From contig NZ_JAFBDH010000006.1 of NCBI RefSeq assembly GCF_016908115.1, positions 1 through 64,000 on the forward strand: 64,000 nt of DNA, written 5' to 3'. The stretch's first letter is position 1. Every line of letters starts with the position of its first letter. Shown piece after piece: positions 11,448 through 63,008 of this stretch. The translations under genes were made by a program, and so were the position numbers. The notes under the pieces are model-generated. The model saw only the letters and a program-made list of their open reading frames with translations, did not search any database and was not told the DNA's origin. This DNA comes from Peptoniphilus gorbachii. Its GTDB lineage: Bacteria; Bacillota; Clostridia; Tissierellales; Peptoniphilaceae.

Positions 11448-13420
11448 TATTTTATTTTCTCAGTTTTAACAAGATTTCCATCAACATAAATGTTATATTC
11501 GCCAGGACCAATTAATTCAACATTACTGACATCTCCGCCATCAACATTGTAATTCCAAACTGAAGTTGCACCAATTTTATTTCCACTTCCGTCTTTTACT
11601 CTTTCAGCTGAAACATTGTGTGTTGATCCATCATCTGGAACTTTAACTTTGACATGGTTTACTTTGTTATAACTATCATCATTTTGTTTATTATCATTTT
11701 CATCATTTTCTTCTTGGTCATTTTTTGAACCCTTAGAAATGAAAAGAGTAACTGTTGATCCCTTTTCTACACTTTGATTTGGCTTTGGATCCATGTCATA
11801 AACTTGACCTTCAGCAACTTTGTTGCTGTATCCATTTTCAATTACAACGGTAAAGCCAAAACTCTTTAATTGATTTACAACTACATCTTGGTCCATTCCC
11901 TTGTAGTCGCTTAAAACAACAGGAGTTTTATCAATTCCCTTTGAAACTATAATCTTTACTGCTGTGCCTCTTTTTACAGAATAACCACCGTCTGGATTTG
12001 AATAGATAACTTTTCCTTCCTCAACTTCTTCGTTGAATTCTTCTTCAACAGATCCAAGTTTTAGGGAATTATCTTCAAGAGTTTTTTGTGCTTCTTCTTT
12101 AGTTAGTCCTTTAAGAGGTGGAACTGGAACAGAATCAGGAAGCTCATTAATTTCTAGAGTAATAGTTGATCCTTTATCAACTGATGTTCCTTCTTCAGGC
12201 TTTTGACCAAGCACAACTCCATCAGGTTCATTTTCATTTTCAACTGTATTTACATCTAAAACTAGTCCCTGTGCTTCAATTAATTCTTTAGCTTCTTCTC
12301 TAGTTTTGCCAATGTAATTTTCAACAGCAATTTTTTCTACTACATCGCTATTTTTCATTCCCTTTATAGCTTTAGGAACAACGTAAATTAATAAAGCAAT
12401 TATTACTATAGCGGAAAAAATTCCTAGTATAGCCGGCGCTGCCGATTTTTTCTTTTTCACAACTTTTTTAGGTTTTTGTCTATCATTATCTAAATTGTTG
12501 GAATGATTTCTATTTTGTTTTCTATTAACCACTGGAGTTACGACAGTCCTATCATCTTCTTCATAATCTCTTTTTACAGAAAAAGTTTTGGCTCCAATTG
12601 TATAATCTTTTATATCTTTAATTAAATCAAAGACATCTCTATATCTATCATCAGGATTCTTTTCTGTCATTTTTAAAACTAAAGCATCTACAGAAGGATC
12701 TATACTCTTAATAAAATCAGATGGCTTTGGCATTTGTGATTGAACTTGCATAAGGGCAACTGAAACAGGATTATCTGCATCAAAAGGAAGTCTTCCCGTT
12801 AGCATCTCAAAAAGAACTATTCCTAGAGAATAAATATCTGATCTGTTATCAACTTTTGCACCTCTAGCTTGTTCTGGAGAAAAATAATGGACTGATCCCA
12901 TTACAGCATTTGTTGCAGTAACAGTTGTATTATCAGCAACTCTTGCAATACCAAAGTCTGTAACTTTAATCCTGTCATCACGAGTTACCATTATATTTTG
13001 AGATTTAATGTCTCTGTGAACAATATGTTTTGAGTGAGCAACCTTTAAAGCTTCTGCAATTTGAATGCAGTAGTTTAATGCTCTCTTTTCAGAAAGTCTT
13101 CCCTCATCATTTATTAAATCTTTTAAAGTTTTTCCATCAATATATTCCATGACAATGTAATGAACTTCTTTGTCTTCAATTATTTCTGTACCAACATCAT
13201 AAATACTTACAATATTTGGATGAGAAATACTTGCTGCCGCAAGAGACTCTCTCTTAAATTTTCTAATAAAATTATTGTCTTCGTTGTATTCTAATTTTAA
13301 AACCTTAATGGCAACAATTCTATCAAGCTTTCTATCATGAGCTTTAAATACATTACCCATGCCGCCTGTGCCAATTTTTTCTAATATTTCATATCTATTT
13401 GCTAAAATTTTATTTATCAT
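11447..13420 (-). CDS. prkC: Stk1/PrkC-type Ser/Thr protein kinase with PASTA domains
   Basis: A membrane kinase that senses muropeptides or lipid II through its extracellular part and phosphorylates division and translation targets. The Hanks kinase domain (about 1-270) shows G-T-G-G-M-G, A-I-K-V-L, H-R-D-I-K-S-Q-N, D-F-G and an activation loop. A basic linker and one membrane helix near 330-355 follow, then three PASTA repeats with G-x-x-x-x-x-A-x-x-x-L spacing, an Asp/Asn-rich linker and a C-terminal beta-rich domain. ATG 13420 is preceded by TAGGTG; the frame extends to ATG 13435 inside prpC. Paired with its phosphatase, as is standard. Confidence 0.95.
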   Translation of the reverse strand: MINKILANRYEILEKIGTGGMGNVFKAHDRKLDRIVAIKVLKLEYNEDNNFIRKFKRESLAAASISHPNIVSIYDVGTEIIEDKEVHYIVMEYIDGKTLKDLINDEGRLSEKRALNYCIQIAEALKVAHSKHIVHRDIKSQNIMVTRDDRIKVTDFGIARVADNTTVTATNAVMGSVHYFSPEQARGAKVDNRSDIYSLGIVLFEMLTGRLPFDADNPVSVALMQVQSQMPKPSDFIKSIDPSVDALVLKMTEKNPDDRYRDVFDLIKDIKDYTIGAKTFSVKRDYEEDDRTVVTPVVNRKQNRNHSNNLDNDRQKPKKVVKKKKSAAPAILGIFSAIVIIALLIYVVPKAIKGMKNSDVVEKIAVENYIGKTREEAKELIEAQGLVLDVNTVENENEPDGVVLGQKPEEGTSVDKGSTITLEINELPDSVPVPPLKGLTKEEAQKTLEDNSLKLGSVEEEFNEEVEEGKVIYSNPDGGYSVKRGTAVKIIVSKGIDKTPVVLSDYKGMDQDVVVNQLKSFGFTVVIENGYSNKVAEGQVYDMDPKPNQSVEKGSTVTLFISKGSKNDQEENDENDNKQNDDSYNKVNHVKVKVPDDGSTHNVSAERVKDGSGNKIGATSVWNYNVDGGDVSNVELIGPGEYNIYVDGNLVKTEKIK

Positions 13421-13427
13421 TGTGCAC

Positions 13428-14144
13428 CTACTCATTAAATACTAAAATAAATGTAATATTATCCATGCCGCCATTTTCAAGGGCGAGATCCAAAAGTTTA
13501 TCCTTTACAACTTCAGGAGTATTTTCTTTTACTATTTTGAAAATTTCTTCATCAGGAATCATATTCGTAAGTCCGTCTGAACAAAATAAAAATATGTCAT
13601 TTTTTTCTATCTTCAAAGTGTTTACTGAAACATCTATATCCTCTGTTGTTCCCATAGCTTTTGTAAGCACATTTTTTTTGGGATGAACTTTTGCCTCTTC
13701 TTCAGTAATTTCTCCGATTTCCATTAAATAGTTTACAAAGGAATCATCTCTTGTTATTTGTTCCATATCTCTATTTATCTTGTAAATTCTTGAATCACCA
13801 ATATTGGAATATACTAAAACATCGCCAAGGATTATTCCACAAGATAAGGTTGTACCCATGCCTCTGTAATCCTCATGCTCTTCAGAGCTTATAAAAATTT
13901 TGCGATTGGCATCTCTAATAGAAGATGATAAAATCTCAATAGCATCCTCAATCTTTTTAACTTCCCTGGCATTTTCAAAATCTGATGCGATTATTTCCGT
14001 TGCCATCTTCGAAGCCCTTTCACCAGCAAGATGTCCACCCATTCCATCAGCTAAAATATATAAATTTTTTGATTCATTTATTAAATAACTGTCCTCGTTA
14101 TTTTTTCTGTAGTTTCCTACATTTGTTGCTGACACAACTTTCAT
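13428..14144 (-). CDS. prpC: PP2C-type protein phosphatase (PrpC/Stp)
   Basis: Removes phosphate from Ser/Thr residues modified by the adjacent kinase. PPM-family metal ligands are visible: E-D-S near 17, A-D-G-M-G-G-H near 32, S-N-I-G-D-S-R near 112, S-D-G-L-T-N near 185 and a terminal G-G-x-D-N-I-T. The 238-residue length is typical of a stand-alone cytoplasmic phosphatase. It follows rlmN with no gap and is immediately upstream of prkC. Confidence 0.95.
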   Translation of the reverse strand: MKVVSATNVGNYRKNNEDSYLINESKNLYILADGMGGHLAGERASKMATEIIASDFENAREVKKIEDAIEILSSSIRDANRKIFISSEEHEDYRGMGTTLSCGIILGDVLVYSNIGDSRIYKINRDMEQITRDDSFVNYLMEIGEITEEEAKVHPKKNVLTKAMGTTEDIDVSVNTLKIEKNDIFLFCSDGLTNMIPDEEIFKIVKENTPEVVKDKLLDLALENGGMDNITFILVFNE

Positions 14145-15164
14145 TTATTTCACCTCAACCTTGCGCCTTAGTTGTCCACATGAAGCGCTGATGTCTCTTC
14201 CGAGTTCTCGTCTAATTGTAACATTAAAGCCCTTCTTCTCAAGTTTTTCTTTAAAAATATTTATTTCAGATTTAGAAGGTCTTTTTTCATCAAATTCATC
14301 AATTGGATTTAATGGTATTAAATTAATATGACACTTCATATTTTTTGCAAAATTATAAAGTTCGTCAATATTTTTTTTGCTATCATTTTGATTTTTAATT
14401 AAAGTGTATTCAAAGGTTATTCTGTTATTTGTTTTCTTTATATAATATTCCAAAGATTTTTTCAATTCATCTAAATTAAATTTTCTATTAATGGGCATTA
14501 AATCTGATCTATCATTGTCATTTGTTTGATGAAGGCTCACTGCAAGATTAATTGGAAGATTCATATCTGCAAGTTCATAAATCTTATCTGCCACGCCGCA
14601 AGTGGAAATTGTAATATTCCTATAACTTGTATTGTGTCCCTTTTCATCATGGAGTAATCTTATAAATCTAATAACTTCAGAAAAATTATCTAGTGGCTCA
14701 CCACTTCCCATTAAAATAAAATTAGAAACCTTAATGCCTAAAGTGTTTTCAATCTCATAAACTTGACCTAACATTTCTGCCGCCGTAAGATTTCTCACCA
14801 GTCCAGATTTTGTTGAGGCACAAAAATTACATCCCATTCTACATCCAACTTGAGTTGATATACACTGAGAATAGCCATGCTTATATTCCATGAGAACACC
14901 CTCTATTAAATTATCATCTTTTAATTTAAATAGAAATTTTTTTGTCTCATCTAATTTTGAATCGAAAATTTTAAAAATTTCAACTTTATTTATTTCTTCT
15001 TTTTTTATTATGGAGATTGCTTTATCTGAAAGATTTGAGTTTTCAATATCATATCTCTTTTTATCATGAAAAAATGTAAAAAGTTGAGAGCCTCTAAAAG
15101 CTTTCTCATCCTTATTTACAAAAAATTCACGCAGCTCATCTTCATACATAGAATTTAATTCCAT
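14145..15164 (-). CDS. rlmN: Dual-specificity 23S rRNA/tRNA adenine C2-methyltransferase RlmN
   Basis: Radical SAM enzyme that methylates C2 of A2503 in 23S rRNA and A37 of some tRNAs. The cluster motif is G-C-R-M-G-C-N-F-C (C-x3-C-x2-C) near 108-116. G-S-G-E-P-L near 155 and the C-terminal R-R-E-L-G-R-D-I-S-A-S-C-G-Q, holding the Cys that carries the transferred methylene, are also present. At 339 residues it is the expected size. It directly precedes prpC; a 96-bp gap and a terminator separate it from rsmB. Confidence 0.96.
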   Translation of the reverse strand: MELNSMYEDELREFFVNKDEKAFRGSQLFTFFHDKKRYDIENSNLSDKAISIIKKEEINKVEIFKIFDSKLDETKKFLFKLKDDNLIEGVLMEYKHGYSQCISTQVGCRMGCNFCASTKSGLVRNLTAAEMLGQVYEIENTLGIKVSNFILMGSGEPLDNFSEVIRFIRLLHDEKGHNTSYRNITISTCGVADKIYELADMNLPINLAVSLHQTNDNDRSDLMPINRKFNLDELKKSLEYYIKKTNNRITFEYTLIKNQNDSKKNIDELYNFAKNMKCHINLIPLNPIDEFDEKRPSKSEINIFKEKLEKKGFNVTIRRELGRDISASCGQLRRKVEVK

Positions 15165-15240
15165 TAAACCACCTATTCATCTTTTCATTATACCATTAGA
15201 CTACAACAATTAAAAATATAATTAAAAAAATAAATTAAAA

Positions 15241-51515: not shown

Positions 51516-52592
51516 TCACTTTAATTTTATATTTGTTAAACTATTTTCGCCAAAAATTCCAGACCCCTCAACAATATCATTTTTATTGTGATTTCTAAAA
51601 GTATTGACTGTTATAATATTTCCTGGCGTAAATTTATTTGAGTCAGACTCAGTTATTTCTACTCTAATATATTTAACTTTTCCACCATCAATTACTTCAA
51701 TAACTTTACCCTTAAAATTAACTGTAAAATACTCTTCAGCAGGCTTTAATTCTTCTCTTATTTCTGTATCTTTTTTATTTTCAAAAATTAAATTATTATT
51801 TTCATTGTTGTTATTATTATTGTTGTTTTGATTATCTAAATTATTTACTTCATTATTTTTTTCTTCTGTATTATTTATTAAAAGATCATTAGCTTCAGTA
51901 GGATTTACTTGATTTTTTATTTTATCTTTATTAAGTTCTACATAAGAAAGACCTTTTGAAGTTATAACAGCAATTTCACTTCTTCTAATGGCAAGATTTC
52001 CGTTAAATTTACCATCAGAACCTGTACTTGTAAAAATATTATAATTTACAAGATTTGGAAGATACTCTAAAGTATGAGAATTAATATTATTTAAGTCCTT
52101 GTATTTTAAATTTGATAGGTCAGTATTTTTTTCAATTTTAAAGGCTCTAGCAAAATAAACTGCAATAGTATTTCTATTTGGATAAACTTTGTTTTCCAAA
52201 AATCCTTTTTCACTGGCGACTTTTAGAGTTTTTTCAGTAATTGTTCCTTGATAAAGATTGTAACATACTGCATCTTTCGCCCAATCAAGAACTCCATTTG
52301 AATTTACAAGTTCAAGATAAGTATCCTTTGCTGCTTTTATTTCATCTTGACTAGGATTTAAAACAGTTTTTAGAATTTGCATAATTTCCAAAAAGCTTAC
52401 TGGCTTATTGGGTTTAAAACTTCCATCTTCGTAACCCTTTAAGATGTTTTTATTTGACAATTCATCAACATAATTATATGCCCAAGCACTTTTACCATTT
52501 TTACTTAAATCTTTAAAAGATTTTGCAAAAAGACTAGCTGGTGCTAATAAAATAATTAAAACTAAATTTATTGCTATAATTTTTTTCTTCAT
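51516..52592 (-). CDS. Secreted S-layer-homology (SLH) domain protein, Asn-rich linker
   Basis: 358 residues. A signal peptide (residues ~1-23, ending in a hydrophobic L-L-A-P-A-S-L-F-A) leads into three SLH modules (about 27-80, 100-155 and 165-215, with S-A-W-A-Y and G-S-F-K-P-N signatures) that bind secondary wall polymers. After these comes an Asn/Glu-rich low-complexity linker with an eight-residue Asn run (~225-270), then a small beta-rich C-terminal domain (about 280-358). The module order and sequence closely parallel the downstream-numbered 677-residue paralogue, pointing to gene duplication. It has its own hairpin after the stop. Confidence 0.88.
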   Translation of the reverse strand: MKKKIIAINLVLIILLAPASLFAKSFKDLSKNGKSAWAYNYVDELSNKNILKGYEDGSFKPNKPVSFLEIMQILKTVLNPSQDEIKAAKDTYLELVNSNGVLDWAKDAVCYNLYQGTITEKTLKVASEKGFLENKVYPNRNTIAVYFARAFKIEKNTDLSNLKYKDLNNINSHTLEYLPNLVNYNIFTSTGSDGKFNGNLAIRRSEIAVITSKGLSYVELNKDKIKNQVNPTEANDLLINNTEEKNNEVNNLDNQNNNNNNNNENNNLIFENKKDTEIREELKPAEEYFTVNFKGKVIEVIDGGKVKYIRVEITESDSNKFTPGNIITVNTFRNHNKNDIVEGSGIFGENSLTNIKLK

Positions 52593-52630
52593 TTCATCAC
52601 TCCGAAATGTATTATAACATAAATTTGGGC

Positions 52631-52660
52631 AAAAAAAATAGAAACCACTAAGGGTTTCTA
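52631..52660 (-). terminator. Terminator after the 677-residue SLH gene
   Basis: TAGAAACC (52639-52646), a 6-nt loop and GGTTTCTA (52653-52660) form a perfect 8-bp stem, followed by eight T on the minus strand. It separates the two SLH genes. Confidence 0.85.
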
Positions 52661-52670
52661 CTTAAAATTA

Positions 52671-54704
52671 TTAATTAAAATGATTAAGATTGCTTAATCC
52701 TTCACCATTTCTATTATTATAGTAACTATTATTATTCAAGAAATATTTATAGTCTTCAAAATCGCTTTTTCTTGTAGTTCTATTAGCATAATTTAAATAT
52801 TGTCTAGGATTTCCAAGAATTCTATTATTTGAATCAGAAATTATTTCTCCATCATTATTCAAGTAACCATCAAAGGATAAAACATCGTATAAATCTAGAT
52901 TTTGACTTGTTTGGAAATAAAGAGTTTTTCCAGGTTTTAATCTTTCATTATCAGATTGGATAACTCTAAGTCCTATTTTATAGATATTATAATTATATCC
53001 AACATTTTCTTTGCTTACAACTTGGAACATTCCACTAAATTCTAAATTTGAATCAATTAAAGTAATAGTTTCAACTTCTTGAGATTTGTTGAATGTCAAG
53101 ATTACATTTTTGCCCCTTAAATAGCTTTCAGTAACTTGACTTTGTCTAAATCCATCATAAGTTTTTATATCAAATTTATAAGCAAGATAATACTTATTGC
53201 GATATCCATCTTTATTTATAATTTCAATGTAGCGATTCTTATCTGAAAAAGATGATTCGTTTCCACTATAGGCAACAACTTCTCCAGATACATCTCCATT
53301 TTTATTATAGTTAGATGAAAGACCCATTACAACTTTATAGTTAACATAAATATTTACATTGTCATTTAAAGTAATTCTATCTAAATCCTTAGTTTCGCTT
53401 GTGATATAAAATTCGTAATCTTTATTGTCTTTAAGTCTAATCTTTAAATAAGCTTTATCCTTATTTGAAGTGTCAAGAGAAATAATTTTACCACTTATTT
53501 GAGCTTCTTTAGGGAATACTGTCATTTCTGTTATTTTGCTGTCAGAATTTGTCTTAAATTCAACTAAATCATCAACTTTTATATCTTCAAGTTTTAAATC
53601 TTTGCCATAAGCTTTGATTTTAACATTTGAATCAAGTGTGAAAGTCTTTGTGTCAGATGTTGAAATTTTTGAAGTTGTTCTAAAGTTTAAAGAATCTGTT
53701 TTATCTCTATATCTAAGAGTAATTTCATTAGTTCCTTTAGAATTTACATATCCAACCATATCAAGCATTGCATTTGTAACATTGATTGTCTTTGCAGTGC
53801 CTTCTCTGTCATTGGAATTGCTCTTAAAATATTCAATTTCTACTTCTTGACCTGCTTTAATATCTTCTAATTTAATATCTTTGTCTTTTATTTTATATTT
53901 TGTATTGTTATTAATATCAAAAGAATATTTTTGATTATTTGCTTCGATTATAATTACATTTACATTGTTTAACTTAGAAGAAAGGATTACAGTACCTTTT
54001 TTCTTTTCAGTTTTAGCATTTAAATTATTCTTTTCAAGATAATCAAAAGATGCCTTAGTAATTATTGCAGTTTCAGCACGAGTAATAGCTCTTTCACTTT
54101 TAAAGTAACCATCAGATCCAGTTGATGTAAAAATACCTGCATCTACAAGAGAAGCTAAATAGCCCTTTAAAGTATCACTCAATTTATTTCGATCTTTATG
54201 TTTTAATAAACTTGTGTCACCATTTGCCTTTAAATTAAGAGCTCTTGCAAAGAAAATTGCAATATCTCCTCTGCTTGGATATTCTCTTGAAGAAGTTTTG
54301 AAAAATCCCTTTTCAGAAGCTTTCTTTAATGCAGCTTCATCTAAATAATTTCTATCAAGAGCTAAACAAACTGCATCTTCCGCCCATGAGTTAACACCAT
54401 TTTCCTTTGCCATCTTAGAATATTTATCACGTGCAGCTTTTAATTCATCAGCACTTGGATTTAAAACTTGTTTTATTAATTGTAAAAGTTCTTCAAGAGA
54501 TACTGAATTTCCTGGTTTAAATTCTCCATCAGGATGCCCGCTAATTACATGCTTATCACTTAATACATCGATTGCATTGTAAGCCCAAGAGTATTTATTG
54601 TCTTTTTTAACATCTTTAAACTCTTTAGCAAAAGTTGCACTTGGTGCAAGCATAATTGTAGCAAGGCCAAGAGCAGCTACTCTTCTTAAATTTTTAGATT
54701 TCAT
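52671..54704 (-). CDS. Large secreted SLH-domain protein
   Basis: 677 residues. Signal peptide (1-26, L-A-T-I-M-L-A-P-S-A-T-F-A), then three SLH modules in about the first 220 residues (W-A-Y-N-A-I, G-E-F-K-P-G, G-S-D-G-Y-F). The remaining ~450 residues are a run of beta-rich repeats around conserved L-E-D-I-K-x-x-x-x-V-E phrases (near 270, 375), which I do not recognise as a named family. Anchored to the wall surface. Its first third aligns by eye with the 358-residue neighbour over nearly all of the SLH region. Confidence 0.88.
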   Translation of the reverse strand: MKSKNLRRVAALGLATIMLAPSATFAKEFKDVKKDNKYSWAYNAIDVLSDKHVISGHPDGEFKPGNSVSLEELLQLIKQVLNPSADELKAARDKYSKMAKENGVNSWAEDAVCLALDRNYLDEAALKKASEKGFFKTSSREYPSRGDIAIFFARALNLKANGDTSLLKHKDRNKLSDTLKGYLASLVDAGIFTSTGSDGYFKSERAITRAETAIITKASFDYLEKNNLNAKTEKKKGTVILSSKLNNVNVIIIEANNQKYSFDINNNTKYKIKDKDIKLEDIKAGQEVEIEYFKSNSNDREGTAKTINVTNAMLDMVGYVNSKGTNEITLRYRDKTDSLNFRTTSKISTSDTKTFTLDSNVKIKAYGKDLKLEDIKVDDLVEFKTNSDSKITEMTVFPKEAQISGKIISLDTSNKDKAYLKIRLKDNKDYEFYITSETKDLDRITLNDNVNIYVNYKVVMGLSSNYNKNGDVSGEVVAYSGNESSFSDKNRYIEIINKDGYRNKYYLAYKFDIKTYDGFRQSQVTESYLRGKNVILTFNKSQEVETITLIDSNLEFSGMFQVVSKENVGYNYNIYKIGLRVIQSDNERLKPGKTLYFQTSQNLDLYDVLSFDGYLNNDGEIISDSNNRILGNPRQYLNYANRTTRKSDFEDYKYFLNNNSYYNNRNGEGLSNLNHFN

Positions 54705-54725
54705 TATAAAACCTCCATTTTTATA

Positions 54726-54770
54726 AGCTTCTTTATAGCTTCTTTATCCTATTATAACATATATTATACC
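54726..54770 (-). promoter_or_regulatory. Leader of the SLH gene: two TATAAT hexamers and an 11-bp tandem repeat
   Basis: On the minus strand two TATAAT sequences (54756-54751 and 54768-54763) precede the gene, without convincing -35 hexamers. Between them and the ATG, AGCTTCTTTAT (plus-strand reading) occurs twice back to back at 54726-54736 and 54737-54747. The good AGGT Shine-Dalgarno follows. Promoter placement is tentative; the repeat is exact. Confidence 0.45.
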
Positions 54771-54861
54771 CATATAATTTTAGAAATATTAAAATTATAT
54801 TAAATTACTTATTAAAAGTTGCAAATAAATCAATAATCTGCTTAAAAAACCTAATATTTGG

Positions 54862-54867
54862 TATAAT
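54862..54867 (+). promoter_or_regulatory. -10 element of the siroheme-synthase-like gene
   Basis: Perfect TATAAT in the 217-bp gap between the two divergent genes, 55 bp before the ATG at 54922. No good -35 was found. Confidence 0.5.
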
Positions 54868-54921
54868 TAATTTAAACGTTACATATTATTGTAAGAAAAT
54901 TTAATATAAAGGAGTGATATT

Positions 54922-55734
54922 ATGCGTTACCTTCCAGTAAGTGTTGACACTTATGAAAAGAAGATTTTAATTTTAGGTGGCGGCTATCTTGCCCTTTCTG
55001 CACTTAAATCTGTAATTGATACAGAGGCAGAAATATATATGATTGCAGATAGTTTTACAAAAGATATAGAAAAAAAGTCTGAAGAATCTCATGGCAAAAT
55101 AAAATTAAAAGAACACAAAATTGAAAAAGATTTTAAATTTATGGGATTTGATTATGTACTTATAGCTACAGAAGAATTTGAACTAAATGAAGCTCTAGAA
55201 AAAAGAGCAAATTCAAGGAATATGATTTATCAAAGATTCGACATTTTCTCAAAATCCTTGATGTCAATTAATAAATCCATTGAACATGGACCACTAACAT
55301 TTTCCTTAAATAGTTCAAGACTTAATCCAACTATTACAGACATAATTTTCGAAGACTTGAAAAAATTCTGTCAAAAATATAATTTGGAAAAATTAAATAT
55401 TTTAAGTGAAATAAGATCTGAACTTGTTCGCAAAAATTCACAAAACATAGATGAAATTATTCGAAAACTTTATGAAAGTGAAACAATAAATCTATCAACT
55501 TTCTTAGAAGAAATGCCTGAATATAAAATTGAAGATTTAAAATCTTCCGAGGATTTAATTAATCACATTGAAAAAGGTAGCGAAATTAATTTAGAAAAAG
55601 AAAGTAGCTTAGAAGATGATCAAATCATCAAAAAAAATTTAGATGATGCAAGAGACTTATCAAGAGATAAAGATCTTAGTAATAAGGATTTAAACTTAGA
55701 AAGTTTTCATGATTTAGATAAATTTAAGAAATGA
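54922..55734 (+). CDS. Siroheme-synthase N-domain-like (precorrin-2 dehydrogenase-type) Rossmann protein
   Basis: 270 residues. I-L-I-L-G-G-G-Y-L-A near 15-24 is an NAD-binding loop, then V-L-I-A-T-E-E-F-E-L-N-E-A-L near 75, and P-L-T-F-S-L-N-S-S-R-L-N-P-T near 125. These three blocks follow the CysG/Met8 N-domain pattern that oxidises precorrin-2. The family's usual S-T-x-G-x-S-P loop is degenerate here. From about residue 205 the sequence is a highly charged Asp/Glu/Lys tail absent from CysG. No other tetrapyrrole gene lies in the window, so the substrate is unknown. It leads a plus-strand trio with the next two genes. Confidence 0.7.
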   Translation: MRYLPVSVDTYEKKILILGGGYLALSALKSVIDTEAEIYMIADSFTKDIEKKSEESHGKIKLKEHKIEKDFKFMGFDYVLIATEEFELNEALEKRANSRNMIYQRFDIFSKSLMSINKSIEHGPLTFSLNSSRLNPTITDIIFEDLKKFCQKYNLEKLNILSEIRSELVRKNSQNIDEIIRKLYESETINLSTFLEEMPEYKIEDLKSSEDLINHIEKGSEINLEKESSLEDDQIIKKNLDDARDLSRDKDLSNKDLNLESFHDLDKFKK

Positions 55735-55743
55735 GGTAATTAA

Positions 55744-56031
55744 ATGATCGGTTATGTAGGAAGTATGCCTGGAAAAGTTTTTAGTGAAAAAGAATTTACT
55801 CTAGTAAAAAAAGTTTTAGCTTCTGGTGAAACTATTGAAAAGCACAATCACCCTGGCTTTACTGTTCTTGTAACTATTGTAAAAGGTCAAATTAAGGTTA
55901 TATTAAACGATGAAGAAGATAGAGAATTTGAACCAGGAAAAGTTTTAAAATTTGATGGTGAAAATTTCATAGCCATTGAAGCATTAAAATCAAGTGAATT
56001 TTTTGTTACTCTAATAAAAAAGGAAGATTAA
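55744..56031 (+). CDS. Small cupin-domain protein
   Basis: 95 residues forming a single cupin barrel. G-E-T-I-E-K-H-N-H-P-G-F is the first metal-binding motif (H-x-H), and G-Q-I-K-V-I-L then F-E-P-G-K-V continue the barrel. No enzyme activity can be assigned; small cupins often bind metal or a small ligand. GAGGT precedes its ATG. It is 9 bp downstream of the siroheme-like gene and 1 bp upstream of the CC-motif gene. Confidence 0.8.
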   Translation: MIGYVGSMPGKVFSEKEFTLVKKVLASGETIEKHNHPGFTVLVTIVKGQIKVILNDEEDREFEPGKVLKFDGENFIAIEALKSSEFFVTLIKKED

Positions 56032-56032
56032 T

Positions 56033-56335
56033 TTGAAAATTAAAATAACAGATGACGCACTTAAATATCTATCTGAAAAAAATGCAAGTGAAGTTACTGT
56101 TGATTATGTTACATCAAACCAGTGTTGTGGAAGTGGTTTGCCATCTTCAGACACCTATGTTTCTAGTCCAAAAAGAAGCGAAAGACAATATGAAGTCTTT
56201 GAAAAAGGTGGTCTTAAAATAAATATAGATCAGTCACTAAAATTTAAAGATGATGTTTGTATTATAGATTTAGTTAATCTTATCTTTACTAAAAGCTTAG
56301 TTTCAAATTTTTTAGACTATAACAAATTAATTTAA
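56033..56335 (+). CDS. Small CC-motif protein, HesB-like (CC/Se-type)
   Basis: 100 residues with K-I-T-D-D-A-L-K-Y-L near the start, resembling the A-type carrier (HesB/IscA) fold, and the central N-Q-C-C-G-S-G-L-P motif. From memory this fits the 'CC/Se motif' family, in which one of the paired Cys is selenocysteine in some members; here both are Cys codons (TGT TGT). A lone third Cys lies near residue 80. It lacks the C-G-C C-terminus of true Fe-S carriers. Start is TTG with GGAAG upstream. A strong terminator follows. Confidence 0.6.
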   Translation: MKIKITDDALKYLSEKNASEVTVDYVTSNQCCGSGLPSSDTYVSSPKRSERQYEVFEKGGLKINIDQSLKFKDDVCIIDLVNLIFTKSLVSNFLDYNKLI

Positions 56336-56350
56336 TTAAAATAACTTTAT

Positions 56351-56403
56351 AAAAACTGTTGAAATTTATGTGCCAACTTTTGTACAAAATTCAACAGTTT
56401 TTT
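56351..56403 (+). terminator. Terminator of the siroheme-like/cupin/CC-motif operon
   Basis: AAAAACTGTTGAA (56351-56363) and TTCAACAGTTTTT (56390-56402) form a perfect 13-bp stem around a 26-nt loop, ending in a T-run. The loop is longer than usual. Confidence 0.8.
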
Positions 56404-56490
56404 ATTTTAAATATATTTATAAAAATATTTTTCTATAAATATGTTTTATAAATTTTTTATATATACTAAACAAATTTTCTTTTTTTCTCC

Positions 56491-56549
56491 TAAACAATTG
56501 TATTTTTCGCTCAAATGTTCTAAAATATAAGTGAATAAACTTGTGTTTA
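56491..56549 (+). promoter_or_regulatory. Promoter of the UvrX cassette with two TAAAC-N4-GTWT sites
   Basis: TTGTAT (56498-56503), 17-bp spacer and TAAAAT (56521-56526) form the promoter. A symmetrical TAAAC-TTGT-GTTTA lies at 56536-56549 over the expected start site, and a weaker copy TAAAC-AATT-GTATT at 56491-56504 overlaps the -35. LexA sites of Firmicutes have the shape GAAC-N4-GTTC, so these could be a divergent LexA or cassette-specific operator. Assignment is inference. Confidence 0.5.
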
Positions 56550-56576
56550 AATATATATTTTTTTAGGAGCTGCTTT

Positions 56577-57989
56577 ATGAGTATTATTGATTATTCTTTG
56601 GAGCCAAAATCTGATATTGCTTTTGTTGATGTAAAATCTTTTTATGCCAGCGTGGAATGTGTAATGAGAAATCTTGATCCCCTAACTACTTCTCTATGCG
56701 TCATGAGTAGGTCTGATAATTCCAATGGGTTAATCCTTGCTAGTTCTCCCACTTTTAAAAGAGTTTTTGGGAAAAACAATGTTGGCCGTTCAAGAGACCT
56801 TCCCTTTGATGTTGAAACTAGAAAGTTTAGTTTTGAAAAGGCTAGAAGGCAAAATATTGAGATTACAAAAAATTACATATCTTATATAGAAAAATGGGCA
56901 AAGAATACTTTTATCGTTCCCCCAAGGATGGCTTTTTACATTAAAGAAAATTTAAAAATTCAAAAAATTTTCCAAAATTATGCATCAGATGAAGAAATTC
57001 TTCCCTACTCTATTGATGAAGGCTTTATCGATTTAACTAATAGCCTAAATTATTTCATACCCAACAAAAGTATTTCTCGCCGTGACAAGTTGGACTTAGT
57101 ATCTTCTATGATTCAAAGAGAAATTTGGGAGTCCCTTGGTCTTTATTCTACTGTTGGTATGAGCAATGCCAATCCTCTTCTTGCAAAGCTTGCCCTTGAC
57201 AATGAGGCGAAAAAAACTAGGACCATGCGTGCCAATTGGTCCTACGAAGATGTTGAAAATAAAGTTTGGGGCATTAATAATCTCACAGATTTTTGGGGCA
57301 TTGGAAATAGAATGAAAAAGAGGTTAAATGATTTATATATTTTTTCTATCAAGGACCTTGCTAATTATAATCCCGATATTTTAAAAAAAGAGCTTGGCGT
57401 AATTGGTCTTCAACTTTGGTTTCATGCAAATGGTGTGGATGAGTCAAAAGTAACCCTTCCCTACAAACCTAAGTCCAAGGGTCTCGGCAATTCTCAAGTT
57501 CTTCCACGAGATTATGTAAGTCAATATGAAATTGAACTTGTTTTATCAGAAATTGCCGAGCAGGTTGCCATTAGAATCAGAAGAATTAAAAAGAAGGCTT
57601 CTGTAATTTCTATTCATGTTGGTTTTTCTTACCTGGAAAATAAAAAATCCATAAATGCAAGGAGAACTATTTCTCCAAGTCAGTCCACTCGAGTTTTATG
57701 TGGCGAGGTTTTAAAACTTTTTCGTGAAAGATATAAGGGCGGCGCTGTAAGAAATCTCGGCGTTACTTATGATAATTTAGTTGACGAGTCTTCTACGATT
57801 TTTAATTTTTTTGAGGGCTATAGAAAAATTGAGTGCGAGGAAAATCTCGACAAGGCAATTGATTCTATTCGCGATAGGTTTGGCTTTACTTCTATCCAAA
57901 GGGCGACTTGTCTAATGCAAGGCTCTCGCGTTATTGAAAGAAGCACTTTAATTGGTGGTCACTGTGGTGGCATGGACGATACTATTTAA
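56577..57989 (+). CDS. Y-family DNA polymerase, UvrX/ImpB-MucB-SamB type
   Basis: 470 residues. Translesion polymerase: F-V-D-V-K-S-F-Y-A-S-V-E-C near 15 (catalytic Asp and steric-gate region), Y-S-I-D-E-G-F-I-D near 140 (second acidic pair), helix-hairpin-helix I-W-G-I-G near 235 and a little-finger domain to the end. The longer length than DinB and adjacency to YolD fit the UvrX group found on chromosomes, phages and mobile elements. ATG 56577 follows AGGAGC. Codon choice (more GGC, CTC and CGC) looks different from the surrounding genes by eye. Confidence 0.88.
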   Translation: MSIIDYSLEPKSDIAFVDVKSFYASVECVMRNLDPLTTSLCVMSRSDNSNGLILASSPTFKRVFGKNNVGRSRDLPFDVETRKFSFEKARRQNIEITKNYISYIEKWAKNTFIVPPRMAFYIKENLKIQKIFQNYASDEEILPYSIDEGFIDLTNSLNYFIPNKSISRRDKLDLVSSMIQREIWESLGLYSTVGMSNANPLLAKLALDNEAKKTRTMRANWSYEDVENKVWGINNLTDFWGIGNRMKKRLNDLYIFSIKDLANYNPDILKKELGVIGLQLWFHANGVDESKVTLPYKPKSKGLGNSQVLPRDYVSQYEIELVLSEIAEQVAIRIRRIKKKASVISIHVGFSYLENKKSINARRTISPSQSTRVLCGEVLKLFRERYKGGAVRNLGVTYDNLVDESSTIFNFFEGYRKIECEENLDKAIDSIRDRFGFTSIQRATCLMQGSRVIERSTLIGGHCGGMDDTI

Positions 57990-58004
57990 TTTGTGAGGTG
58001 TTAT

Positions 58005-58349
58005 ATGGTTAATAGAAACTATTTGCCCTTTAAATCTACAAGAGCTTATGTTGACAGAGGCATGGCAAAGTGGATGGGATTTTTTATTTCTGAACACACT
58101 TCTGCCCTTTCTCACATGGGAGATGTTATAGATGTAAGTGAAGAGATGAGCCGAGATGAAATTCTTCTTGCCCTTAGTCAGCTCTATGTAAATGGTCTTA
58201 ATGTCATGGTCTACACAAGGCTTAGACTTGATCCTTTTGTTGGTAAAATAAACGATATTTTTCAGGACTCTTTTTATTTATGTGGTCATGACGCTCTTAT
58301 TATTTCTTTTGAGGATATTATTAAGCTTGTTCTTTTGGAGGAATTATGA
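58005..58349 (+). CDS. YolD-like family protein
   Basis: About 114 residues, a small protein regularly found beside UvrX-type polymerases, thought to act like UmuD in bacteria that lack it. The family pattern of a positively charged start (R-G-M-A-K-W) followed by a beta-rich core is visible. Starts at ATG 58005 with GTGAGGTG upstream (the frame is open from 57993). It follows uvrX by 15 bp and overlaps the next gene by 4 bp. Confidence 0.82.
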   Translation: MVNRNYLPFKSTRAYVDRGMAKWMGFFISEHTSALSHMGDVIDVSEEMSRDEILLALSQLYVNGLNVMVYTRLRLDPFVGKINDIFQDSFYLCGHDALIISFEDIIKLVLLEEL

Positions 58350-58657
58350 AGGATTTAGAAAAAAGTTGTATTCAGTTTGATTATTTTTCTAGCAATTATA
58401 AAAATTTCGAGGAAGATTTTTATAAATTTGCAACTATAAATATTCCCCTTACCTTTTTAACTGATGATCTCTTGCTACACATGGTTTCAACGGGACATAA
58501 TTATTTTAGACTCAATGCAAAAAATTCTGTAGACGAGAAAGATCATTACTTTATTTTCAAAAAATTAAATAACAAAGATAATAAATATATCAGCCAATTT
58601 GAGTATCTTGGAAATCTATCTACTTTAGAATTTTTTAACTTGTATTTCAGTAAATAG
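58346..58657 (+). CDS. Unknown 103-residue protein, third gene of the UvrX cassette
   Basis: Not recognised. 103 residues rich in Phe, Tyr, Asn and Lys, with no signal peptide, membrane segment or obvious motif; one Cys. It overlaps the YolD gene by 4 bp (ATGA) and ends the operon before a strong terminator, so it is almost certainly co-translated with the polymerase and YolD. A role as an accessory or inhibitor of translesion synthesis is possible but is only inference from position. Confidence 0.7.
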   Translation: MKDLEKSCIQFDYFSSNYKNFEEDFYKFATINIPLTFLTDDLLLHMVSTGHNYFRLNAKNSVDEKDHYFIFKKLNNKDNKYISQFEYLGNLSTLEFFNLYFSK

Positions 58658-62378: not shown

Positions 62379-62448
62379 AATGGAGGAAAAAATAAATTTA
62401 CAAAATTTATTAGAATGGAGGAAAAAATGAATTTACAAAATTTATTAG
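62379..62448 (+). repeat. 35-bp tandem duplication covering the nitroreductase RBS and start
   Basis: Two adjacent 35-bp copies (62379-62413 and 62414-62448) differ at one base. Each holds GGAGG and the first codons; copy 1 has ATA where copy 2 has the ATG. The short direct repeat AATGGAG borders each copy and recurs immediately after the second, as expected for replication slippage. Because 35 is not a multiple of 3, translation from copy 1 would leave the gene's frame. Confidence 0.9.
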
Positions 62449-63008
62449 AATGGAGACGAAGCTATAGGAAGTTTGACGAAAGTAGGTTAATTTCAAAGAA
62501 TGATATTGATGAAATTTTAAATTCCATTAAATTTGCCTCTTGTGCCAACAACAGGCAGTATCTTAGATTTATTTCTGTTGAAAATAAAGATAAGGTTTTA
62601 GAAATTTTTGATAATACTAAATGGGCTGCTTCCCTTCCTAATAATATAGGACGTCCTAAAGAAGGAGAAAGACCAGTTTACTTTATTGCAATTTTAAGTG
62701 ACGAAGCTAAAAAGCTTAGATTTAATGGACTTGATGAAGGTTTAGTTATTTCTAACTTAACTCTTACTGCTGCTGAGAAAGGCATTGGCTCTTGCATTAT
62801 TGGAAGTGTGAATGATAAAAAGATGCGTGAAATTTTAAATTATAAAGATAATTATTCCTGTGAAGTTGTAATTGCCTTTGGATATCCAAAAGTTAAATCT
62901 ACTATAAAAGAAATAGATTTAGAAGAAGATCAATCTTATTACCTAGACGAAGATGGCAACTACCTTGTGCCAAAATATAAAAAAGATGACATTGTTAGGA
63001 GAATATAA
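62427..63008 (+). CDS. Nitroreductase-family flavoprotein
   Basis: 193 residues. FMN-dependent oxidoreductase fold: R-R-S-Y-R-K-F near 10 (FMN-binding Arg), A-S-C-A-N-N-R-Q near 40, G-L-V-I-S-N-L-T-L-T-A-A-E-K-G-I-G-S near 105 and V-V-I-A-F-G-Y-P near 150. The substrate is not predictable. The start is ATG 62427, the second copy of the duplicated start region; the in-frame ATG at 62415 overlaps the GGAGG. It overlaps the next gene by one base (TAATG), suggesting coupling. Confidence 0.88.
   Translation: MNLQNLLEWRRSYRKFDESRLISKNDIDEILNSIKFASCANNRQYLRFISVENKDKVLEIFDNTKWAASLPNNIGRPKEGERPVYFIAILSDEAKKLRFNGLDEGLVISNLTLTAAEKGIGSCIIGSVNDKKMREILNYKDNYSCEVVIAFGYPKVKSTIKEIDLEEDQSYYLDEDGNYLVPKYKKDDIVRRI

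Follow-up and report, generated by a model that had tools for sequence, protein, structure and literature searches.

The first gene of a three-gene block in Peptoniphilus gorbachii is probably a neofunctionalised descendant of an operon-borne precorrin-2 dehydrogenase (Met8/SirC), that is, a conserved enzyme with a different job. Homology, synteny, membership of a separate clade, absence of the tested pathway genes, residue changes and purifying selection were each established by computation. The block lies within the window, the 64,000-nucleotide stretch of DNA that we analysed. The original prediction, which took the block for part of a metal- or selenium-related pathway, missed what now looks like the main point, namely that the gene is an operon survivor belonging to a distinct operon-less clade. 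The features of the locus are as follows.

54856-54867, plus strand: putative extended -10 promoter element ATTTGGTATAAT, with TATAAT at 54862-54867 after TG
54910-54914, plus strand: ribosome-binding site AGGAG, assigned from the sequence
54922-55734, plus strand: gene 1, Met8/SirC-like, 270 aa
55744-56031, plus strand: gene 2, small cupin-like, 95 aa
56033-56335, plus strand: gene 3, CC protein, 100 aa, TTG start
56351-56402, plus strand: terminator hairpin with a 13-bp stem (56351-56363 and 56390-56402), then a T-rich stretch

As predicted, the three plus-strand genes are tightly packed: the open reading frame listing gives gaps of 9 bp between gene 1 and the cupin gene and of 1 bp between the cupin and CC genes. 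When placed as in the window, the CC start lies 1 bp past the cupin stop in each of the 9 loci compared, out of 10, a spacing that suggests translational coupling of these two genes. The TATAAT expected before the trio proved to be part of an extended -10 element, and ATTTGGTATAAT is unchanged across all 11 aligned upstream regions, which represent 11 of the 14 loci of the genus; GAGTGAT at the ribosome-binding site is likewise invariant in this alignment. A mechanical promoter scan did not return the element; it reported 21 sites, at chance level against 20.0 in shuffled sequences. The anticipated 13-bp terminator stem folds with -19.8 kcal/mol (z -5.66), a value equalled by none of 200 shuffles, and was overlooked by the mechanical scan because loops were limited there to 3-8 bases. 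An Rfam search of positions 52000-58000 returned zero matches at E-values up to 1, and an upstream riboswitch was rejected on this ground. Two SLH-domain proteins are encoded divergently to the trio (52671-54704 and 51516-52592). Directly 3' of the trio, positions 56541-58657 hold a gene for a UmuC/DinB-type DNA polymerase (IMS family) and two small genes. All nine other trio-bearing congeners carry a pyruvate-phosphate-dikinase-like gene at the UmuC/DinB position, and the block is probably an insertion particular to the P. gorbachii genome.

The product of gene 1 can be divided into two regions.

Residues ~1-205: NAD-binding Rossmann, dimerisation and helical domains
Residues ~206-270: charged tail

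The proposed resemblance of this protein to the precorrin-2 dehydrogenase domain is upheld by a match to PF13241 above the cut-off and by matches to SirC and CysG in the PDB. An AlphaFold2 model, for which 40 of 62 sequences served as input, has a pLDDT of 80.5 and contains the three-domain Met8/CysG fold. Foldseek paired the model with SirC at 1e-11, and VIA-align gave Z scores of 16.6-18.1 for CysG over ~200 residues, 16.7 for SirC and 14.2 for Met8p; the next row after these siroheme enzymes has Z 10.6, and other Rossmann proteins follow from there down. Like SirC, Met8p and the N-terminal module of CysG, the protein thus combines this fold over ~200 residues with a GGG NAD-binding motif, G19-G20-G21, all three glycines of which are present in the 14 copies of the genus. 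The siroheme model TIGR01470, however, scores it at 36.3 bits, below the cut-off of 62.3.

The original prediction had also held that the trio does not serve siroheme synthesis, and the genomes agree. HemC, which occurs in 39 of the 130 family genomes, was found in 0 of the 14 genus genomes, as were HemB, siroheme-type reductases (NIR_SIR) and CobA above its cut-off; no source of precorrin-2 (HemB, HemC or above-cut-off CobA) was therefore detected in any of the 14. Three Pfam controls gave matches in 11 of 14 known genomes each. The P. gorbachii genome itself encodes two TP-methylase-family proteins, and the CobA model gave a single hit there, below its threshold (E 9.1e-6). Elsewhere in the window, at 62415-63008, a short nitroreductase-like protein is weakly BluB-like (28.5 bits, cut-off 150), in this genome without above-cut-off CobA; it is probably an ordinary nitroreductase.

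Met8-like matches were found in 66 of 130 family genomes, at 70 places, and we examined 62 of these loci (left out, here and from the trees, were G010, G012, G025, G027, G030, G050, G052 and G053). Hem operon genes were named on one representative operon, gene calls in the relatives are mechanical open reading frames, and the neighbour labels SLH, hem and dikinase come from clustering together with Pfam/NCBIfam searches on representatives. At 26 of the 62 loci, a hemA, hemC/cobA-hemD, hemB or hemL cluster gene is found no more than 1.5 kb from the homologue. The remaining 36 have no hem neighbour, 31 being in HemC-less and 5 in HemC-bearing genomes. The operon order elsewhere in the family is hemA-met8-hemC-cobA/hemD-hemB-hemL, and in some genera the operon occupies the same chromosomal site as gene 1. 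One of the two nearest upstream genes is a divergent member of the SLH cluster at 31 of the 34 loci of the operon-less clade described below and at 9 of 26 operon loci; in G075 an SLH-cluster gene is still adjacent, but downstream, at a rearranged site. A pyruvate-phosphate-dikinase-like gene lies within five genes downstream in 15 of the 34 clade members. The partial hem operon of another genus (g2) has the same SLH neighbour at 8 of 8 loci and the dikinase-like gene at 5 of 8. Since orphan and operon copies share these neighbours, the simplest reading of the gene order is that a tetrapyrrole operon once stood at the gene 1 site and that all of it was lost except met8, the sole survivor. Within g2, hemA adjoins Met8 at 0 of the 8 loci of its partial operon.

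The 34 operon-less copies form one clade. Its support is 93/89 in a first tree and 92/81 in a second, where the copies are one-sided in 89% of bootstrap trees; both values are below the strict mark. Of the 67 copies in the second tree, 8 were taken from other families within the order; these outgroup copies all lie beside hem genes and fall outside the operon-less clade. Two further operon-less copies, L091 (in G065), which lacks the catalytic Asp, and L106, stood outside the clade on long branches in the first tree; neither enters the clade counts, and the second tree was built without them and without L105. At an E-value of 7e-17, which is our own conversion of the 62.3-bit cut-off, TIGR01470 is reached by 1 of 34 clade members, as against 19 of 26 operon copies. 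Nine genus groups are represented in the clade, with 30 genomes lacking detectable HemC (26 at least 90% complete, four below 90%) and four, G060, G075, G097 and G098, in which the clade member coexists with an operon Met8 that is 34-39% identical; G097 is 100% complete with 1% contamination. Because the orphan is kept there beside a normal operon Met8, it is unlikely that the two do the same job. In an order-wide search of 249 genomes, 27 from outside the family produced matches, every one of them weak (E 1e-17 at best). An orphan lineage outside the family was considered and rejected, the 8 of these 27 matches that were fetched all lying beside hem genes. Such a clade is described in none of the listed titles or abstract openings on precorrin-2 dehydrogenase, on Met8p/SirC or on Peptoniphilus and siroheme.

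The residues of the active site allow the fate of the enzyme to be followed. For CysG, PMC7018833 reports that Asp104 is required for both reactions, the D104A mutant being inactive, that Pro133 forms a platform, that Lys27 and the backbone amides of residues 128, 130 and 132 hold substrate carboxylates, and that Arg162 binds another substrate carboxylate. The equivalent of Asp104 in gene 1, D107, is Asp in all 34 clade members versus 10 of 26 operon copies. Since the 6 near operon copies that were inspected all have Asp, as do 7 of 8 outgroup copies, the residue was retained in the clade, not gained. Together with R105 it is among 19 positions that are invariant across the 34 divergent copies. 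The counterpart of the substrate ligand Arg162, R165, is Arg or Lys in all 34 clade members, and that of Pro133, P136, is Pro in 29 of 34, so that the clade may still bind a tetrapyrrole-like ligand.

Other contacts have gone. Of the 34 clade members, 28 have lost the second loop glycine, equivalent to Gly130 of CysG, and all 14 genus copies carry Arg or Lys in its place. The loop in the window reads S131-S132-R133, in keeping with the degraded STGG-like loop originally noted; where the window protein has this Arg, Gly stands in all 8 outgroup copies and in 16 of the 25 operon copies (8 of the 25 are gapped). At the position of Lys27, all 14 genus copies have Ala, 18 of the remaining 20 clade members have Lys or Arg, and 24 of 25 operon copies and all 8 outgroup copies have Lys. 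Gene 1 therefore resembles CysG and Met8p in its catalytic Asp, and CysG in its equivalent of Arg162, while it differs from SirC, Met8p and CysG in lacking Gly130 and Lys27, in its charged tail, in its score below the TIGR01470 cut-off and in residing in a genome without the tested pathway genes. Residue loss is by itself no proof of a new function, as eight operon copies from one genus have lost Gly130 and 16 of 26 operon copies lack the Asp. The eight are the g2 Met8 proteins (L088-L090, L092-L095 and L097), which have a shortened loop without Gly130 and are devoid of the catalytic Asp.

These observations bear on the possibility that gene 1 encodes a salvage dehydrogenase or a (reverse) chelatase acting on a tetrapyrrole scavenged from the host or from neighbouring microbes, for which precorrin-2, sirohydrochlorin, heme or a corrinoid would be candidates. 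We assign this a minor, though appreciable, probability. The whole CysG-like predicted fold and the conservation of D107, R165 and P136 in the numbers given above are what such an enzyme would show; however, siroheme-type reductases occur in 0 of 14 genus genomes, and the loop Gly130 and, in the genus, Lys27 have been lost, both of which are substrate contacts in CysG (PMC7018833). What is more, no tetrapyrrole uptake gene is found among the annotated neighbours, in neighbourhoods that are annotated in part.

Selection was estimated by the Nei-Gojobori method. Gene 1 and the cupin gene were each compared among 12 of the 14 genus members and the CC gene among 10, and only pairs with a dS of 0.05-1.5 were kept. 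The median dN/dS of gene 1 is 0.11 over the whole gene (51 of 66 pairs), 0.08 in the core (41 pairs) and 0.24 in the tail (55 pairs). Within the genus the corresponding values are 0.13 for the cupin gene (62 of 66 pairs) and 0.27 for the CC gene (29 of 45 pairs). All three genes are thus under purifying selection, which is strongest on gene 1. We consider it very improbable that gene 1 is a decaying, functionless relic of the lost hem operon. No tested operon gene is left in the genus, the loop residues are degraded, and gene 1 has no neighbouring CC gene in 4 of 14 genomes and no neighbouring cupin gene in 1 of 14, all as decay might leave them. The core dN/dS argues the other way and largely refutes a pseudogene; so do the reading frame of gene 1, which is intact in every one of the 14 genus genomes, the positions that never vary among the 34 divergent copies, and the conserved -10 element.

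The charged tail of ~65 residues ascribed to the first protein was confirmed, with an end that is poorly predicted in the model. Tails are present in all 34 clade members, at 23-308 aa (median 62.5) and with 20-55% Asp/Glu; those of operon copies measure 0-35 aa (median 3). The orphan copies L068, L069, L070 and L077 have very long acidic tails of 130-308 aa, and those of L068 and L070 finish in a short basic, aromatic stretch. An amphipathic membrane anchor at the tail end was tried and rejected, the hydrophobic moment being within the range of shuffles for most of the 34 tails; in the lowest result, 17 of 500 shuffles were as high.

The presence of a charged tail in all clade members, together with the divergent SLH-cluster gene in 31 of 34 members and its position adjacent downstream in the rearranged G075, could mean that gene 1 encodes no enzyme but a sensor of NAD(H) or a scaffold, perhaps in the service of the cell envelope or of the divergent SLH surface protein. 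In other genera the genes downstream include an ABC-type pair (3 of 5 loci in g4) and one for a hydrophobic protein of 170-185 aa (4 of 4 loci in g38), which would be consistent with this. We regard it nonetheless as quite unlikely. The SLH-cluster gene already flanks the hem operon at 9 of 26 operon loci, so that inherited synteny accounts for the pairing; the invariant D107 speaks for catalysis, and the anchor looked for in the tail was not found.

Of the 14 genus genomes, 13 have the cupin gene next to gene 1 and 10 have the CC gene there, the full block of three genes being present in 10, and this linkage is more than chance. In G121 a transposase-type helix-turn-helix gene occupies the position expected for the CC gene. 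At none of the 48 loci from outside the genus does the Met8-like gene have the cupin or the CC gene as a neighbour. The proposed co-occurrence of the trio in relatives therefore stands within the genus and fails beyond it; the trio is not a conserved system, and the cupin and CC proteins are, as judged from gene order, genus-level additions beside gene 1.

The cupin scores below the cut-offs of PF07883 (23.6 bits, cut-off 27.2) and PF07847 (23.7, cut-off 27). Metal-binding cupins are characterised by HxH plus the Glu of motif 1 and by the His of motif 2. In alignments read by eye, the window protein has the HxH (H34 and H36), lacks the motif-1 Glu and carries N74 at the place of the motif-2 His, so that the set is incomplete; HxH itself is lost in the cupin of one congener (L052). 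Among eight fetched loci with homologues from outside the genus, three (L124, L126 and L131) adjoin a PAS/hemerythrin-like/DUF1858-like gene, with PAS above cut-off in all three, hemerythrin in two and DUF1858 in one. These neighbours give a weak hint of a redox or oxygen/NO response. The window cupin differs from such small cupins of anaerobes in adjoining a Met8-like gene.

The CC protein is a member of NF041239, a CC/Se motif family (44 bits, cut-off 40), and is 72% identical to a homologue in Peptoniphilus grossensis ph5. Of the motif residues C31-C32, C31 is invariant in the 15 sequences aligned. Its model (pLDDT 86.4) has a predicted IscA/SufA-like fold: Foldseek matched it to IscA 1r94 (3.7e-4, TM 0.55) and also to 1x0g, with SufA 2d2a lower. 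In A-type Fe-S carriers a C-terminal CxC supplies cluster ligands. Unlike IscA and SufA, the CC protein ends in NFLDYNKLI, without a CxC, and its PF01521 score of 19 bits is below the cut-off of 26.3. Among the partly annotated neighbourhoods of the family that were fetched, no common partner appears among those listed.

Taking gene 1 as a neofunctionalised Met8/SirC descendant, we propose the following course. The hem operon at the locus would have been lost apart from met8, and the surviving gene would have shed parts of the loop that grips the tetrapyrrole. With its NAD fold and catalytic Asp preserved, it would have acquired a charged tail and been conserved as an enzyme with another job. 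The protein may bind NAD(P)(H) in its Rossmann domain, and D107, situated over the active site, could serve in proton transfer or metal coordination. With an altered anion pocket, its substrate would be something other than home-made precorrin-2, and the most likely step would be a redox reaction, or the insertion or removal of a metal, with a small molecule that is anionic or binds metal. Within Peptoniphilus, and this is the least certain part, two small proteins would have been added to the transcription unit of gene 1 as metal- or thiol-handling accessories. Our guess is that the trio comprises an NAD-dependent redox or metal-handling enzyme and two accessory proteins. A metal-related role is possible in view of the predicted IscA-like fold, the HxH of the cupin and the retained catalytic Asp. 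That gene 1 encodes a new NAD-dependent enzyme inserting a metal into, or removing it from, scavenged heme or another metal ligand, with the CC protein and cupin as dedicated carriers, seems doubtful to us.

Met8/CysG-type proteins are readily taken for siroheme enzymes, and the present case is a warning that siroheme or B12 synthesis should not be read from such a gene. The clade offers a testable case of an enzyme that outlives its pathway and takes up new work. Should the substrate prove to be a metal ligand or scavenged heme, the case would be relevant to iron handling by human-associated anaerobic cocci.

The selenium part of the original prediction did not hold, and we consider a selenium pathway for the trio extremely improbable. 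It had drawn on the CC protein's family, which does include selenocysteine forms: Table 1 of PMC13188914 lists NF041239 (Moor_selen_rel) among the CxxU selenoprotein families, and relatives in other genera carry an in-frame TGA of the selenocysteine type. The window protein shares with this family a score above the cut-off and the invariant C31; unlike the Sec forms it is all-Cys and comes from a genus without SelA, and its gene adjoins a Met8-like gene and a cupin gene, an arrangement seen at 0 of 48 loci outside the genus. SelA was found in 0 of 14 genus genomes, which leaves the genus no selenocysteine route, and exceeds its cut-off in only 5 of 34 clade genomes. The Met8-like gene is present in all 14 genus genomes; the all-Cys CC protein is missing beside it in 4.

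A selD gene, which might also have favoured a selenium pathway, is present in the P. gorbachii genome; there it adjoins yedF and two more genes, on a contig other than that of the trio. At this locus (L109, contig C10, ~12800-15200) selD is followed by yedF, a gene for 87 aa and what by eye looks like the beginning of a cysteine desulfurase gene. An orphan-selD trait associated with molybdenum hydroxylases is described in PMC2276186, and by analogy the selD/yedF cluster looks like this labile-selenium trait rather than a selenocysteine one. A second HesB/CC-type protein is encoded on contig C5 of the same genome (L112, 6121-6477), between genes for a CstA-like transporter and an AAA ATPase, and is below the cut-offs of both families. 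Genus g35 has adjacent TGA-bearing copies of the family to which this second protein belongs.
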